From NCBI GenBank assembly GCA_025457915.1, contig JALOTL010000026.1, forward strand, positions 1 to 42,121: a stretch of 42,121 nucleotides of DNA, written 5' to 3'. Position numbers and translations under genes: made by a program. Below are positions 4,035 to 41,868 of this stretch, piece by piece. Position 1 is the first letter of the stretch. Every line of letters begins with the position of its first letter. This stretch comes from Spirochaetota bacterium. GTDB lineage: Bacteria > Spirochaetota > UBA4802 > UBA5550. The notes beneath the pieces are model-generated. The model was not told where the DNA came from. It was given only the letters and a program-made list of their open reading frames with translations, and did not search any database.

Positions 4035-5300
4035 ATGAACATATTTACCAAGGCAAAAAATGGCACTATGACGCCCGAGGTCGGGTTCGTAGCCGGAAAG
4101 GAGGGCCTCGACGCTGCGCGCGTCATGGAAGGCTTCGCCGGCGGAGAAATCGCTATATTTAAAAATTCCGCCAGGAAAATCGATCCCGTAGGCGTCGGCA
4201 GGGGGCTCAGCACCAAAATCAACGCGAACATAGGCACGTCCCCCGACATGTTCGACGCGACCCTCGAGCTTGAAAAACTCAGGGTCTCGGTCGAGGCAGG
4301 AGCGGACACGATAATGGACCTTTCGACGGGAGGGGACCTGCCGGCCATAAGAAGGCAAATCATCGGGAACTGCGGGGTCCCGCTCGGCACCGTCCCGCTG
4401 TACGAGGTCGCGGTCGAAATGAAAAACAGAAAGAAATCCGTGATCGACATGGAAATTGAGGATTTTCTCGGCGTTATAAGAAAGCAGTGCGAGGACGGGG
4501 TCGACTTCATGACCATCCATTCCGGGATCACGCGAGAATCGCTCGCGTCTCTCAAGTCCGGCAACAGGGTGATAGGGATCACCAGCCGCGGCGGATCCAT
4601 CATTGCCGAATGGATAAGCGTCAATAAAAAGGAAAACCCGCTTTACGAGCATTACGACGAGATACTGGACATCCTCGCGCCGTACAACGTCGTGGTGAGC
4701 CTGGGCGACGGCCTCAGGCCGGGGGCGATAGCGGACGCGGGCGACAGGGGCCAGATCCACGAGATGATAATCCTGGGCAGCCTCGCAAGAAGGGCCCGCG
4801 AAAAGGGCGTCCAGGCGATAATCGAGGGTCCCGGCCATATGCCGCTTGACATGATTGCCGACAACATGAGGCTCGAAAAGTCCATTTGCGACGGCGCCCC
4901 GTATTACGTGCTCGGACCGCTGGTTACGGACGTCGCACCCGGGTACGACCATATAACGTCAGCCATAGGAGGCGCGATAGCCGCGGCGAGCGGCGCGGAC
5001 TTCCTCTGCTACGTGACCCCCGCAGAGCACCTTCGTCTCCCGACCGTGGAAGACGTAAGGGAAGGCGTGATCGCATCGAAGATCGCGGCCCACGCCGGCG
5101 ACATAGTGAAGCTCGGCAGCAGGGCCTCCGGATGGGACCGCGACATGTCGAAGGCCAGAAAGGAGCGGAACTGGGAAAAAATGTTCAGCCATTCCATAGA
5201 TCAGAAGAGGGCGCGGGAATACAGGGGAGCGTCCCCCTCGCAGCAGGAAGACCAGTGCTCCATGTGCGGCGAGTTCTGCGCGATAAAAAGACAGTATTAA
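4035..5300 (+). CDS. thiC: Phosphomethylpyrimidine synthase ThiC (radical SAM)
   Basis: A 421-residue ThiC, the radical-SAM enzyme that rearranges AIR to HMP-P for the thiamine pyrimidine. Recognisable blocks are NANIGTSP, DLSTGGDL, the active-site stretch SLGDGLRPG, EGPGHMPLDMI, GPLVTDVAPGYDHI and LCYVTPAEHL. The C-terminal cluster motif has cysteines at 408, 411 and 415 (CSMCGEFC), spacing CX2CX3C; E. coli ThiC has CX2CX4C. I believe the shorter spacing is common in the short anaerobe/archaeal ThiC branch but cannot verify that here. The close paralogue BzaF (5-hydroxybenzimidazole synthase) cannot be excluded, but no cobamide genes are nearby. No TPP riboswitch is visible. The start codon has only a weak GAGG 13 bases upstream. 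Confidence 0.9.
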   Translation: MNIFTKAKNGTMTPEVGFVAGKEGLDAARVMEGFAGGEIAIFKNSARKIDPVGVGRGLSTKINANIGTSPDMFDATLELEKLRVSVEAGADTIMDLSTGGDLPAIRRQIIGNCGVPLGTVPLYEVAVEMKNRKKSVIDMEIEDFLGVIRKQCEDGVDFMTIHSGITRESLASLKSGNRVIGITSRGGSIIAEWISVNKKENPLYEHYDEILDILAPYNVVVSLGDGLRPGAIADAGDRGQIHEMIILGSLARRAREKGVQAIIEGPGHMPLDMIADNMRLEKSICDGAPYYVLGPLVTDVAPGYDHITSAIGGAIAAASGADFLCYVTPAEHLRLPTVEDVREGVIASKIAAHAGDIVKLGSRASGWDRDMSKARKERNWEKMFSHSIDQKRAREYRGASPSQQEDQCSMCGEFCAIKRQY

Positions 5301-36196: not shown

Positions 36197-37819
36197 CTAA
36201 TCTTCAAGATGCATATTGATGTCCGCAACCGCACCAAGAAGATCATCGGTATCGCTCCTGTTTCCTGTCAATACAGTTTCAACGGTGGCCAGCTCGTTTA
36301 CGATGAACCTGTATGTCTGGTTTTTCAGGTCCTCTATTCCCCTGTTCACTATTTCCGTAAGATCGGAAGTGATGCGGTGCAGGTTTTTATTGATCTCATA
36401 TGGTATCTGGCTTCTAAAATGCCTGCCGAATATTCCGCGATATAAAAACATGGGGAAAAGGAACCAGAACATGTCAAGGTGGAACTCGCTGGCGCGGCTG
36501 ACCCTGACGTCCGGGTCGCTTATCTCCCTGATCTCGACAACCCATTCCTCGGACCTGATTTCAATGCCGAGAACGGACCTGATGCTCTGGTTCAGCCTTT
36601 CGCGGAAGGAACGGCAAAAAAAAGCGAAATGCCTGTGGGCATCTTCAAGAAGAGCCACAAGCCCCGGCCGTTCCGCTTCCACGATTTTTTTTATCTCCTC
36701 CCTGAGAACGGCTTCAAGCCATTTTTCATATTTCCGCGACACCCTGAACAGGTTTCCGCCCCATGAACCGTATTCACCGACGAACATCCTGCCGACCCCA
36801 TCTTCAAGGCCAGGCCGGTACGGCTTCACCATGCCGTAAATCCTTTCCCTTGTCTGGCTCAGGAAACCGGTTGTCACAAGCAGAAGTTCGTTACGCACGT
36901 AATCCACGCTCAGTCTTTCGCTCAAGATGAGCCCTTTCAGATTTTCCCGCTCGGCATCGGATTTTTTCGAGACCTCCAGTGCGAGCTCCAGATAACTCAG
37001 GCATGCAACGGCGAGGGAATGGATTTTATACTTCAATATTTTATCGAATTCAGCGCCAAAATCTTTCATCAGCGGCCTGAACAGTTTTTCACCGAGCTCA
37101 TTATTATACAGACCGGTATTGATTTTCGATGAAAAGCGATAGATGGGAAGCCGGCGGTTAATCGTTTTCCGGATCGACCGGTCCATGAAATCGATGATCT
37201 CATTTATCTGCGGCCCGTCGAACAGGTCGGCCTTCGTAAGCAGCACGATGATGTCCGGGCTGTATTTTTCAGCCTCTTTAATAAGAAGTATCTCGCTTTC
37301 GGACAGGGGCCTGTCAGCGCTTATGGCGACGATTGCGACCCCGATCTCGGGGGCCCATTTTTCAGTTACCTCGCTGTTGTGCCTGAAGATGCTCCCGAGC
37401 CCGGGCGTGTCGACGAACCGGAGCCCCCTGTATGGCTTCAACTCCGGCAATTCGACATCGACCCAGAGCACGTTTTTTTTATTTTCCGGGTTCCTGGACT
37501 CCGACACGTATTCATCTATATCGGACAGGGCCGTCTCGCACCTTCGCCCGTCGAAAAAAGTCACGACGGTCTTTTCAATATCACCGAAGGCCATCCTCGT
37601 AATGACGGAAGTGAGGGGAATGACGCCGGTGGGGAGAATGTTTCTTCCGAGAAAACCGTTCAGAAACGAACTCTTACCGGCCTTGAACTGCCCCAGCACG
37701 GCCACATCTATGACCTTGTTCTGAGACAAAAGATGGTCGACGGCCTCCAACTGACGGTCCAGAGACCGAATCCGGTGCCTTTCGCACTCCTTTTTTATGA
37801 TCGCCAGTAAATCTTCCAC
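36197..37819 (-). CDS. Bacterial dynamin-like GTPase
   Basis: A 540-residue large GTPase of the dynamin family. G1 is GQFKAGKSS (43-51), G2 the Thr in VIPLTS (66-71), G3 DTPG (137-140) and G4 TKAD (195-198). The rest is helical, as expected for the neck and trunk of dynamins. A hydrophobic stretch at 448-465 (FWFLFPMFLYRGIF) could be the membrane-inserting paddle. Bacterial dynamins remodel or protect the inner membrane, and some defend against phage-induced lysis. The gene begins 24 bp after a two-helix membrane protein, which follows enolase by 35 bp, so it may belong to the fluoride-controlled transcript. Its arginine codons are mixed, intermediate between the two styles in the window. Confidence 0.85.
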   Translation of the reverse strand: MEDLLAIIKKECERHRIRSLDRQLEAVDHLLSQNKVIDVAVLGQFKAGKSSFLNGFLGRNILPTGVIPLTSVITRMAFGDIEKTVVTFFDGRRCETALSDIDEYVSESRNPENKKNVLWVDVELPELKPYRGLRFVDTPGLGSIFRHNSEVTEKWAPEIGVAIVAISADRPLSESEILLIKEAEKYSPDIIVLLTKADLFDGPQINEIIDFMDRSIRKTINRRLPIYRFSSKINTGLYNNELGEKLFRPLMKDFGAEFDKILKYKIHSLAVACLSYLELALEVSKKSDAERENLKGLILSERLSVDYVRNELLLVTTGFLSQTRERIYGMVKPYRPGLEDGVGRMFVGEYGSWGGNLFRVSRKYEKWLEAVLREEIKKIVEAERPGLVALLEDAHRHFAFFCRSFRERLNQSIRSVLGIEIRSEEWVVEIREISDPDVRVSRASEFHLDMFWFLFPMFLYRGIFGRHFRSQIPYEINKNLHRITSDLTEIVNRGIEDLKNQTYRFIVNELATVETVLTGNRSDTDDLLGAVADINMHLED

Positions 37820-37843
37820 AGCTTGAACACCGGTTTTAGGATG

Positions 37844-38056
37844 CTAAATAAAAATCTTTCCTACTAAAAAAAATACAAGAATAACAGCGCCGACTGTCAT
37901 CAAAAAACCCAGTGCGGCGATTTCCAGGGACATGATGATCCTTCTTTTCCGGGTTATTGCCGGGAAATGCTGGTATCCTTCATAGGCATTGAGGAAAGCC
38001 GCGATTCCGCCGACGGCTCCGAAAACGGTCCCTATGACAGAAAGCATGGGGATCAT
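37844..38056 (-). CDS. Small two-helix membrane protein
   Basis: About 70 residues with two membrane helices (about 4-23, IGTVFGAVGGIAAFLNAY, and 45-67, AALGFLMTVGAVILVFFLVG) joined by a basic loop (PAITRKRR), both ends probably outside the cytoplasm. I use the ATG at 38056, the first after the enolase stop; a TTG at 38083 close behind GGGAG would add nine residues. I recognise no family. Position between enolase and the dynamin gene suggests it could be a membrane partner of either the GTPase or the antiporter, which is inference from order alone. Confidence 0.62.
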   Translation of the reverse strand: MIPMLSVIGTVFGAVGGIAAFLNAYEGYQHFPAITRKRRIIMSLEIAALGFLMTVGAVILVFFLVGKIFI

Positions 38057-38091
38057 ATCCAAATTCAACAGTACTGAGTCCAATCTCCCTT

Positions 38092-39369
38092 CTACTTCAA
38101 AAATGGATTTACAAATAATGCCTGGCCGCCCATATCCCGCTCGATTTCCAACAGACGGTTGTACTTGCAAATGCGCTCGCTGCGGCAGGCCGAACCGGTC
38201 TTGATCTGTCCGCCCCCCATGGCCACGGCAAAGTCGGCCATGAAGCTGTCCTCGGTCTCGCCCGAACGGTGGGAAATGACATAGCCCCAGCCCGCCTTAC
38301 GGCACAGGCTGATCGCCTCGATGGTCTCCGTGACCGTTCCGATCTGGTTGAGTTTGATGAGTACCGCGTTACAAGTTTTTTCTTTTATTCCGCGCGAGAT
38401 GAATTTCGTATTCGTGACGAAAATGTCGTCGCCTACGATCTGGACCATTCCGCCGAGCGCGGCAGTATGCTCCTTGAAGCCGCTCCAATCGTTCTCATCG
38501 AGACCGTCCTCAATGGAAATAATATGATATTTATCAACCCAACCCTTGTAAAAGGCCGTCATCTCCGCGCTTGTTTTATTCCCCTGGCCGGATTTCGAAA
38601 GAACATAGGTGCCTTTTTCAAAAAAAGAACTCGCCGCCGGATCGAGAGCAAGGGCTATGTCCTTCCCCGGTTCATATCCCGCAGCCATGATCGCCTCGAT
38701 TATCACCTCGCAGGCTTCGTCGTTGCTCTTGAGATCGGGTGCGAAACCGCCTTCGTCGCCGACCCCGGTTGAATAGCCCTTTTTGCCCAGTATTTTTTTC
38801 AGGGCATGGAAGGTCTCGGCGCCGTAACGGAGCGCCTCAGCGAAAGTCGGCGCGCCGACCGGCATGACCATGAACTCCTGGAAATCAACGCTGTTCTCCG
38901 CATGCTTACCGCCGTTAAGGATATTCATCATGGGTACGGGAATGCGGTATGAACCCGTCCCGCCGAGGTAAGCGTACAAGGGCAAGTCTGCCGCAATGGC
39001 GGCCGCTTTCGATAACGCCATGGACACGCCCAGGATAGCATTGGCCCCGAGCTTGCCTTTATTGGGTGTTCCGTCGAGCTCTATCATGAGCCGGTCGATC
39101 TCCGCCTGTTTCGACGGGTCCATGCCGATGATCTTCGGAGCGATTATGTTGTTTACATTTGCGACCGCCTTCAAAACGCCTTTACCGTCATAACGTTTTT
39201 TATCACCGTCACGGAGCTCAACTGCCTCGTTTTCACCGGTTGAGGCCCCGGACGGCACCGACGACGAGATGCTGATGCCGTTATCGAGGGTCATAAAAAC
39301 CCTGACGGTGGGGTTCCCCCTTGAATCCAGTATTTCAATCGAATTGACTTCTTTAATTCTGCTGCGCAT
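38092..39369 (-). CDS. eno: Enolase
   Basis: A 425-residue enolase (2-phosphoglycerate to phosphoenolpyruvate). All key blocks are present: [33 protein letters not shown] (general acid/base Glu), [10 protein letters not shown] (metal Asp), [11 protein letters not shown] (metal Glu), VGDDIFVTN (metal Asp), [13 protein letters not shown] (catalytic Lys and family signature) and SHRSGETED. Enolase is the textbook fluoride target: Mg2+, phosphate and F- lock its active site. It lies 23 bp behind the antiporter gene, with GGAGG seven bases before its ATG, downstream of two fluoride riboswitches. Arginine codons are mostly CGN (13 of 16), unlike thiC. It may be an extra, inducible copy; whether another eno exists elsewhere is unknown. 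Confidence 0.95.
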
Positions 39370-39392: not shown

Positions 39393-40640
39393 TTATCTTT
39401 CTTTTTTGCTCTTCAGATAATCATCGAGACCGCTGTCCTCCCAAGTGTCCGATATTGTATCGAGCTGGGGGACCTCCTCGTCCGCCATTGGCGCTTTCAG
39501 CAAGTGTTCCGGCAAAAAGGCCATATTCGCAATGAGGGTCGGAACTACGGCGCTCGCGATGATGGCCGCGATTAAAAACGAGTACTGGTCCTGGCTTACA
39601 ATCCCGTGGTTTAGTCCGTAAAGGGCGGATATCGACCCGAAGGTGAGGCCCGTCGACATAAGCAGTGTGTAGTACCAGCGTTCCTTTTTGCTCTCGCGGA
39701 ACCTCCCGATCACGGGATAGAGGCCGAATATTTTCGAAGCGACCTTGCCCGCCAGGAGCGCCAGGAACACAAGGGGGGCCGCAAATATGGCCGGGATGGA
39801 AACAAGGAATCCCGCGCGGAGGAAATATATAGGTGTGAGAAATCCGATGGTAAGGGTCCTGAGACGGCGAATGAAAAATTCATCGCGGGATACCGTACCG
39901 GCGAGTATCATTCCGACGATGTACGCGGGCAGGACGGCCTCGCTCCCAGCCCAGAGAGCCAGGGTGCCGAGAGCAAACAGGACAAGAACGATCCACTTGG
40001 TCCGTATGGCAGCCGTGCGATTCCCGTACATACGCGTCAGGCGGGCGGTGAGCGGAGGCATTACGAAAACAACCGCGACGCAAACCACTATGAAAACCAA
40101 CGTTTTCCAGTTAAACGGGGCGAAAATCAAACCAAGGGCGATTACCGTACCCAGATCGTTTATGAAGCAAGCGCCGAGAATTCCCTTGCCGTATTCTGTT
40201 TTGTTAAACCCGTATTCAAGCATGACGGCATACACGACTGCCATGGATGTTGTAGAGAGCGCAACTCCGGCGAGAAGGCTTGCCCGCACATCCCAGCTCA
40301 GGACATAATATGCCAAAACCGTGCATCCCAAAAAGGGCGCGAGAAAACCTAAAAGGCCCACTACGGAGACCTCTTTCATTTTTACTTTCAGGGACTCGGG
40401 GTCGAGTTCCGCCCCGGCGAGAAACGTGAGAAGGATGGCACCGGAACCGGAAACGAACTTGATCCATTCGGAGTTCGGGTGCAGGATTTCAGGATCGGCG
40501 AAACGCGAAACGATGTACCCTGCCAGGGCGCCCACACATATTTCCATGAGAGCCATGGATATTTTCAGACGGTTTGCGAGAATGGTGGATACCACGGCAA
40601 GACCGAGCCAGACTGTAGCGATTGTAAAAATTTCAAGCAT
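39393..40640 (-). CDS. CPA2-family cation/proton antiporter under fluoride riboswitch control
   Basis: A 415-residue integral membrane protein with 11-13 helices of the Na+/H+ exchanger (KefB/CPA2) type. [10 protein letters not shown]-like N-terminus, [34 protein letters not shown] and [15 protein letters not shown] (Asn-Asp in the ion-binding helix) are family features. The C-terminal tail of about 35 residues is acidic ([20 protein letters not shown]) and soluble; no TrkA-N domain is present. The ATG has GAGGT eight bases upstream. Two fluoride aptamers precede it on the same strand, so it is probably induced by fluoride and may help expel F- or restore pH and cation balance when HF enters. 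The transported ion is not known. CGN is used for 13 of 16 arginines. Confidence 0.88.
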
Positions 40641-40675
40641 GGGGTTTCACCTCAAACAATAGTATTTTATTTTCT

Positions 40676-40700
40676 GTGCGGTCATATCCGGGACTCGCAC
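40676..40700 (-). promoter_or_regulatory. Hairpin between fluoride aptamer A and the antiporter gene
   Basis: On the minus strand GTGCG-A-GTC pairs with GAC-CGCAC around CCGGATAT, eight pairs with one bulged A. It is not followed by T, so it is not a terminator. Its GAGTC (40696-40692) can instead pair with GACTC (40716-40712) in the aptamer's pseudoknot strand, so it may be part of the switch. Confidence 0.4.
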
Positions 40701-40707
40701 TGTTAAT

Positions 40708-40757
40708 AAAGGAGTCATCAGCCCTGCCGGGCGGTTATGGCGAACCCCATCGCCAGA
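40708..40757 (-). promoter_or_regulatory. Fluoride riboswitch aptamer A (crcB motif)
   Basis: Read on the minus strand, GGCGATGGGGTTCGCC is followed by the conserved ATAACC linker, hairpin GCCC-GGCA-GGGC and TGATGACTCC. This matches the fluoride (crcB-motif) riboswitch in order and in its invariant bases. The pseudoknot is GGGGT (40748-40744) with ACTCC (40715-40711). It ends about 70 bases before the antiporter start codon, so it would directly control that gene. The match was made by eye against remembered examples from Thermotoga and Bacillus. Confidence 0.92.
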
Positions 40758-40823
40758 ATCGACCAGGCATGCAATTTTTTGAAGCCGTTCCATAATCTTC
40801 CCGATCATCTCTGACAAGGGCCC

Positions 40824-40857
40824 AAACAACAAAAACCCCCTTCTTTGCCGAAGGAGG
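40824..40857 (-). terminator. Intrinsic terminator between the two fluoride aptamers
   Basis: On the minus strand CCTCCTTC pairs with GAAGGGGG (one G-T pair) around GGCAAA and is followed by TTTTTGTTG. It lies about 45 bases downstream of aptamer B and ahead of aptamer A. It fits the expression platform of B, stopping the transcript when fluoride is low. Confidence 0.75.
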
Positions 40858-40899
40858 TTTATTCCTAAATTTCAACCGCCATCCCGGCAAACGTCTTTC

Positions 40900-40948
40900 C
40901 CAGGAGTCATCAGCCTTGCGGCGGTTTCGGTGAACTCCATCACCGATG
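40900..40948 (-). promoter_or_regulatory. Fluoride riboswitch aptamer B (crcB motif), upstream of aptamer A
   Basis: Minus strand: CGGTGATGGAGTTCACCG, linker AAACC, hairpin GCC-GCAA-GGC and TGATGACTCC. The pseudoknot GGAGT (40938-40934) with ACTCC (40907-40903) is perfect. AACCGCC (40926-40920) is also perfectly complementary to GGCGGTT (40880-40874) just downstream, an alternative pairing that would undo the aptamer. A terminator follows, then aptamer A, so this is a tandem arrangement. Confidence 0.9.
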
Positions 40949-41022
40949 CTTGATACTATTTTGTTATAATAAAAATATACTAACGTGCTTAATAATGCAA
41001 TAAACAATATATTATCCCATTA

Positions 41023-41067: not shown

Positions 41068-41097
41068 TTCATCTATTTTTTTTAATGAAATAATAAA

Positions 41098-41147
41098 TGG
41101 CGATGGAGTTCGCCTTGTAACCGCGTATCTCCGCTAATAACTCCTAC
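41098..41147 (+). promoter_or_regulatory. Fluoride riboswitch aptamer C, plus strand, no fluoride gene visible downstream
   Basis: TGGCGATGGAGTTCGCC, linker TTGTAACC, hairpin GCG-TATCTC-CGC and TAATAACTCCTAC reproduce the crcB-motif order, with GGAGT to ACTCC pseudoknot complementarity intact. The linker is two bases longer than in aptamers A and B. It points away from the antiporter. Its nearest downstream frame is a 139-codon gene of unknown function starting 300 bases on. Confidence 0.85.
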
Positions 41148-41321
41148 ATTGAAAAATTATTAAACTATACTTCGGAAAAATTCCCGGAATTGATTCCCGA
41201 GAATAATGGTTTTTTTATTTATGGTGCAGTATCAATCATGATTACATGAATTTCATTCAGCTATTATTTTTGTTATAATAATAGGATAAAAAAATCAGGG
41301 TATAAATCCGCATCAACCATT
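41148..41321 (+). other. A/T-rich gap after aptamer C with a possible terminator
   Basis: No gene is visible. CTTCGGAA can pair with TTCCCGAG (one mismatch) around the inner palindrome AATTCC-C-GGAATT (about 41170-41198), with TTTTTTT eight bases further on. This could be the expression platform of aptamer C, although the T run is farther from the stem than usual. Confidence 0.35.
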
Positions 41322-41448: not shown

Positions 41449-41868
41449 TTGATAAAAAAACATGATATGAATAAAAAAATAACAGCGATTCGAATGGCTG
41501 CATATAAAACCCTTCACCTGGTATTCGTTAAACATATCACCCTCGACAGGTATATGATCGTGGAATCGGAAAATGACGGCGGTACGCCCGTACTTGCGGA
41601 TTATCTTTCATTTCACCAACATGAAGCACTGATCCGAGTCAAGGACGTCGGCAGTAATGTCATCTATCTCCTCAGTCCCGAACAATTCAGGAAGTCTCTG
41701 ATCGATACGATGATGAAACAAGATCCTTTAATTGAAGAAAAATTACGCTTATGGTTTCCTTTCCTGTGGAATGAGGAAACCGGAGATGATTCCGGAAGGT
41801 ATGATTCAATTCTTAGGCAATTAAATGAACTTTCAGAAATATATGAAAATTCCGGGAAGGAAAAATAA
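41449..41868 (+). CDS. Protein of unknown function, 133-139 residues
   Basis: A hydrophilic protein without signal peptide or clear motif. It reads MNKKITAIRMAAYKTLHLVF from the ATG at 41467; a TTG at 41449 would add six residues. Neither start has a good ribosome site. The middle contains GGTPVLADYLSFHQHEALIRV and the C-terminus LRLWFPFLWNEETGDDSGRYDSILRQLNEL. I recognise no family. It lies 300 bases downstream of fluoride aptamer C, beyond a family C repeat, so it may or may not be under fluoride control. Being A/T-rich like its surroundings, it may be part of a recently acquired segment. Confidence 0.5.
   Translation: MIKKHDMNKKITAIRMAAYKTLHLVFVKHITLDRYMIVESENDGGTPVLADYLSFHQHEALIRVKDVGSNVIYLLSPEQFRKSLIDTMMKQDPLIEEKLRLWFPFLWNEETGDDSGRYDSILRQLNELSEIYENSGKEK

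Follow-up and report, generated by a model that had tools for sequence, protein, structure and literature searches.

Tandem fluoride aptamers predicted to gate transcription and translation of an antiporter-enolase operon in a Spirochaetota bacterium

The stretch of DNA analysed here, 42,121 nucleotides of a Spirochaetota bacterium (contig JALOTL010000026.1, below called the window), carries two complete fluoride aptamers in series ahead of an operon that begins with a cation:proton antiporter and an enolase. From folding models we regard it as probable that the pair forms a tandem fluoride ON switch with one ligand and two mechanisms, in which the first aptamer in the RNA (B) would gate transcription of the whole operon and the second (A) would gate translation of the antiporter only. 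The effect of A would be confined to the antiporter because the enolase gene has a ribosome-binding site of its own, a GGAGG read from the sequence. A terminator/antiterminator for B and a sequestration of the start for A are both predicted, and both do better than controls when judged by folding, by shuffled sequences and by other start regions. The original prediction had proposed two sequential switches, one on transcription and one on translation or RNA stability; a transcriptional and a translational switch in series is the best-supported reading, with an output for A that is not the GAGTC hairpin first suggested.

Results

A scan of the window with Rfam placed two RF01734 aptamers on the minus strand, A at 40702-40763 (55.3 bits, E 8.9e-13) and B at 40894-40953 (54.3 bits, E 1.9e-12), each more than 20 bits above the gathering score of 34 bits, which bears out the proposal of two tandem fluoride aptamers. 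A third aptamer, C, which the original prediction did not mention, lies on the opposite strand 136 bp from B, and all three fall within 452 bp. With 55.3, 54.3 and 52.0 bits against 34, A, B and C carry the conserved aptamer sequence and the P1/P3 structure of the family. Inspected by eye, the pseudoknot between the P1 loop and the 3' strand is perfect in B and in C (GGAGU/ACUCC in both), and in A it contains one G-U pair (GGGGU/ACUCC). The three sequences differ in stems, loops and linkers and are therefore not a duplicated piece of assembly. Beyond them, we found no fluoride aptamer in the genome (3.66 Mb, 96% complete).

In the minus-strand RNA the order is B, a terminator-like hairpin with a U-tract, A, and then the antiporter start codon at 40640. 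The 130 nt between the aptamers (40764-40893) hold no intervening gene and stay below the 300-nt limit used for tandem arrangements, both aptamers being on the same strand. A 61-aa frame with a TTG start (40647-40832, minus strand) begins after the terminator of B and spans A, and its stop overlaps the antiporter ribosome-binding site; this frame is probably spurious, a product of chance, and if it were translated, aptamer A would be disturbed. The genes of the operon are as follows.

39393-40640, minus strand: CPA2-type cation:proton antiporter, 415 aa, first gene of the operon (PF00999, E 1.2e-36; TIGR00932 below its cut-off)
38092-39369, minus strand: enolase, second copy in the genome, with its own strong ribosome-binding site (PF00113, TIGR01060)
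36197-38170, minus strand: 108-aa protein (p108) and dynamin-like GTPase (PF00350 for the GTPase), later genes of the operon in the order also seen in relative G018

A HIT protein follows the GTPase, and the other enolase copy of the genome lies on contig C28. Na+/H+ antiporters and enolase are both established genes of fluoride riboswitches, and enolase is an enzyme that fluoride inhibits (PMC11139923), so that A and B precede genes of the fluoride response. Neither CrcB/Fluc nor a CLC protein was detectable in the genome of the window, and the antiporter operon is therefore the only riboswitch-linked fluoride response that we found there. Among 46 genomes of the order, a fluoride-linked antiporter (10 genomes) and a CrcB above the cut-off (11 genomes) never occur together, a mutual exclusion with a chance probability of 0.045 if relatedness is ignored; the antiporter may replace the CrcB exporter in this order. 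In several genomes of the order (loci L005, L011-L014, L017 and L018) the gene for the dynamin-like GTPase, which in the window lies at 36197-37819, comes immediately after a fluoride aptamer, and in others it is part of an antiporter-enolase operon; it looks like a recurrent gene of the fluoride response.

The elements that would make up the expression platform of B are listed here, all on the minus strand.

40894-40953, minus strand: fluoride aptamer B, first in the RNA (RF01734, 54.3 bits)
40920-40926, minus strand: AACCGCC, strand of B and partner of GGCGGTT when no ligand is bound (exact 7-base complement; minimum free energy fold)
40885-40891, minus strand: TTTGCCG, outer antiterminator strand (exact complement of CGGCAAA; forms before the terminator in stepwise folding)
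40874-40880, minus strand: GGCGGTT, predicted switching strand, paired with the aptamer when ligand-free and with AACCTCC of the terminator when ligand-bound
40831-40860, minus strand: intrinsic terminator of B with U-tract (11-pair hairpin at 40860-40833, then TTTTT)

The two sequence features originally noted for B, a terminator behind the aptamer and an exact 7-base complement of AACCGCC downstream, are thus present, the former as an 11-pair terminator-like hairpin (40860-40833) with a U-tract and the latter as GGCGGTT at 40880-40874. In the free fold of the B segment the AACCGCC/GGCGGTT pairing and the terminator form together, and the whole segment folds better than every one of its dinucleotide shuffles (z -3.9, 0/200 as good). 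When AACCGCC is kept by the aptamer, stepwise folding instead gives an antiterminator made of TTTGCCG/CGGCAAA and GGCGGTT/AACCTCC (-16.3 kcal/mol), which forms ahead of the emergence of the terminator's 3' arm and is predicted to persist until the RNA has reached about 40838, after which the terminator is the more stable; the models contain no energies for pseudoknot or ligand. A complement as long as AACCGCC/GGCGGTT arises in 4.6% of shuffles and the antiterminator duplex (-17.6 kcal/mol) is matched by 2.9%, and since each is unremarkable alone, the case for the platform of B rests on their combination.

Taken together, we infer for B a three-state ON attenuator of the textbook type. In the absence of fluoride, AACCGCC of B would pair with GGCGGUU, leaving AACCUCC free for the terminator, and transcription would stop. 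With fluoride bound, B would hold AACCGCC, UUUGCCG and GGCGGUU would pair with CGGCAAA and AACCUCC as the antiterminator, and the polymerase would read through.

For A, the elements considered were these.

40702-40763, minus strand: fluoride aptamer A, second in the RNA (RF01734, 55.3 bits)
40739-40750, minus strand: AUGGGGUUCGCC, loop and P1 strand of A, complementary to the antiporter start region (duplex -21.5 kcal/mol)
40676-40700, minus strand: hairpin between A and the start codon, lacking a U-tract and probably a spacer (from the fold; its GAGTC complement is at chance level)
40638-40653, minus strand: start codon ATG of the antiporter with its ribosome-binding site GAGG; predicted sequestered strand GGUGAAACCCCAU at 40651-40639

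There is no terminator at A, as originally noted. The hairpin whose GAGTC had been thought to pair with the pseudoknot strand was dropped as the output of A: the GAGTC/GACTC complement does exist in 40700-40676, yet a 5-base complement occurs there in 51% of shuffles. The predicted fold pairs AUGGGGUUCGCC (40750-40739) with GGUGAAACCCCAU (40651-40639) through 8 contiguous pairs and 4 more past a bulge. The paired stretch runs from the end of the ribosome-binding site across the spacer into the start codon, of which it takes up the first two bases. As a duplex this pairing reaches -21.5 kcal/mol, a strength attained by 1 of 5000 shuffles and by none of 175 start regions drawn from part of the same genome (mean -9.7, best -19.5 kcal/mol).

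The probability that the AUG is unpaired is 0.008 in the free fold and 0.47 with aptamer A locked. Locking A does not make the GAGG, which the pairing covers only in part, any more accessible (0.38 to 0.28), and any effect of A would therefore run through the spacer and the start codon. One strand serves both P1/pseudoknot and start pairing, which makes the sequestered and the aptamer states of A mutually exclusive. By about 13.6 kcal/mol the models favour the sequestered fold over the locked aptamer, the latter computed without pseudoknot or ligand, and A would therefore have to work kinetically. These models predict that the output of A is its loop strand, pairing with the ribosome-binding region and start codon of the antiporter. 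On a read-through RNA free of fluoride, AUGGGGUUCGCC would pair with GGUGAAACCCCAU and hide both; with fluoride bound, the AUGGGGUUCGCC strand would be held in P1 and the pseudoknot and the start would be freed. Translational control by A would thus operate through the AUGGGGUU/AACCCCAU pairing.

Several families of the order contain antiporter homologues (identity about 70-82%) that are preceded by a fluoride aptamer. Relatives use a single aptamer; G018, from the family of the window's genome, shows the gene order of this operon after one aptamer. Three relatives (L008, L020 and L021) have a start region, GGAUUCCAUG or GGACUCCAUG, that resembles the pseudoknot strand GACUCC of the aptamer itself, and its pairing with AUGGNGUCC exceeds all 175 controls in strength; in L016 the start pairing falls in the top 1-2% of controls. 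The antiporter leaders L026, L027 and L031 were searched for the start pairing and it was not found. Across the window and L008, L020 and L021, 36 of the 36 pair cells are standard, the single bulged A of the window being left out, and two pairs differ on both sides between the window and the other three (A-U to G-C and C-G to U-A). Sliding the pairing partner breaks the pairing. Covariation over the four sequences does not beat a shuffle control (66/500), and we take the two apparently compensatory changes as supportive only. A hairpin stands between the single aptamer and the start in these relatives, in some followed by a U-tract.

Aptamer C occupies the divergent side of the locus.

41090-41153, plus strand: fluoride aptamer C, divergent (RF01734, 52.0 bits)

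Its variant GCUAAUAACUCC is also present in L018, and the second of the changes occurs alone in several others, so C is not obviously dead. The first sizeable frame downstream, at 41464-41868 on the plus strand (134 aa), begins about 310 nt away and has neither a Pfam or NCBIfam match nor a relative in 44 neighbouring genomes. A platform was sought for C and the fold is no better than shuffles (z -0.24).

To place the arrangement, 393 genomes of the phylum were searched with RF01734, and no other pair lies within 1 kb. The next closest, in genome G016 (contig C48, locus L083), consists of two same-strand aptamers 1.4 kb apart that flank the antiporter gene, one before and one behind it. A pattern for two spaced aptamers gave one match in 84,980 species genomes, a coding sequence without an Rfam match, and none in two scans of viral contigs; the pattern, with its narrow spacing and a TTTT between the aptamers, makes the species-genome result a weak negative. 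Among plasmids, 48 records matched, and in those listed the match is only as long as one aptamer. The plasmid L098 of Methylocystis sp. MJC1 does carry three separate aptamers, but these are 2.4-2.9 kb apart, spread over 5.6 kb in the surroundings of an antiporter, a crcB and an enolase gene. At a further locus (L082, G015:C65), the genes after a fluoride aptamer at 4401-4461 on the minus strand begin with a partial match to CrcB (contig positions 20129-20359); next come a fragment matching the C-terminus of enolase only, p108 and the GTPase; the enolase gene there is possibly broken.

The description of tandem fluoride aptamers as rare was fair. Sherlock and colleagues in 2022 searched RefSeq 80 (44,270 named species) and environmental sequence, excluding gaps above 300 nt, and Table 3 of that survey puts fluoride among the classes not found in tandem (PMC9481103). 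The main text of a 2025 study of contiguous riboswitches deals with fluoride only in passing (PMC12452182).

Discussion

Whether the two aptamers act in series depends on their sharing one RNA, which we consider likely. A promoter between them was looked for, and the standard scan (9 of 12 matches) reports no site there. At the lower stringency of 8 of 12 matches, one weak candidate appears at 40817 on the minus strand, TTGTCA-17-TATGGA, and such sites number 2 where shuffles lead one to expect 0.84. This would suit two independent transcripts, with B attenuating an upstream start and A served by its own promoter between the terminator of B and A, the two working in parallel rather than in series. 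However, the candidate agrees with the -10 hexamer at just 3 of 6 positions, the final T not among them, and several better candidates lie upstream of B, so that we hold this arrangement to be quite unlikely. An adjacent pair acting cooperatively on a single platform, as in glycine riboswitches, was rejected, as B and A are separated by a terminator that has switching strands of its own.

Another reading is that only B switches and A is a bystander, either the relic of the ancestral single riboswitch, its terminator lost, or a copy on the way to being lost itself, its complementarity to the start having no regulatory effect. The missing terminator would fit this, given that the single aptamers of relatives have hairpins before the start, with or without a U-tract, as would the one G-U pair in the pseudoknot of A. 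Yet A scores as high as B (55.3 bits), the A-to-G difference that creates the G-U pair also creates a G-C pair with the start region, and the start pairing beats 175 of 175 control start regions; we therefore think it unlikely that A is idle. A might also act on RNA stability or transcription, for instance by access of Rho or an RNase, rather than on translation initiation. Such a role would fit the coupling of translation to decay in bacteria and the open stretch that the leader has from the hairpin to the start. No positive sequence evidence points that way and the strongest alternative pairing extends as far as the start codon, which makes this explanation highly improbable.

A tandem switch in which B gates transcription and A gates antiporter translation is thus the reading we favour. 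In the relatives one aptamer may serve both levels, and in the window each of the two aptamers seems to have one of these outputs. A tentative scenario, drawn from few genomes and somewhat short of an even chance in our estimation, is that a single-aptamer leader combining a terminator-like hairpin with start sequestration, as in L008, L020 and L021, was split over two aptamers, one for transcription of the operon and the other for translation of the antiporter alone, and that the divergent transcript carries a third fluoride aptamer.

The steeper response that had been suggested for two gates is predicted only to a modest degree: in a minimal model of simple, independent gates with equal affinities, the 10-90% range narrows from about 81-fold to 40-fold. 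Steepness is therefore less telling than a reduced leak and an additional gate on a single gene, and the benefit is likely to be a very low leak of the antiporter together with a reversible late shut-off of translation on finished RNA after fluoride falls. The locus offers a compact test of what a second gate for the same ligand provides, be it a steeper response, a lower leak or gene-specific control within an operon. As the predicted start-sequestering strand is the conserved aptamer loop itself, it also suggests a simple, testable translational design for fluoride switches. One clear natural tandem fluoride case would change Table 3 of the 2022 survey (PMC9481103).

Among known systems, the transcriptional crcB riboswitch of Bacillus cereus (RF01734) has in common with B the aptamer sequence and structure and, as predicted for B, an ON response by escape from an intrinsic terminator. 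It differs in that the terminator of B would be reached through a separate switching strand that pairs with AACCGCC, and in the window the leader goes on to a second complete fluoride aptamer. Two fluoride riboswitches, from Pseudomonas syringae and Burkholderia pseudomallei, have been used as translational controls (PMC13273304), and A resembles them in that no fluoride-dependent termination is expected and control would lie at translation; in the predicted competitor of A, the start codon is itself the partner of the P1-loop/pseudoknot strand. Tandem riboswitches with two mechanisms are a described kind (PMC9481103). The SAM-II/SAM-V tandems share with the window a single ligand and have the order predicted here, transcriptional first and translational second, but they are OFF switches built from two aptamer classes, whereas the window has predicted ON switches of one class for fluoride. 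Pseudo-cooperative tandem TPP riboswitches likewise place two complete riboswitches of one class in series before one operon (PMC9481103); both of their units are described as termination decisions, while the second unit of the window appears to be translational. Finally, an engineered double fluoride riboswitch from Nitrosomonas europaea and Burkholderia thailandensis was strongly repressing in E. coli and could be induced about 25-fold (PMC8814607); like the window it sets two fluoride riboswitches in series, though it was built in the laboratory from two species and the pair in the window is natural.
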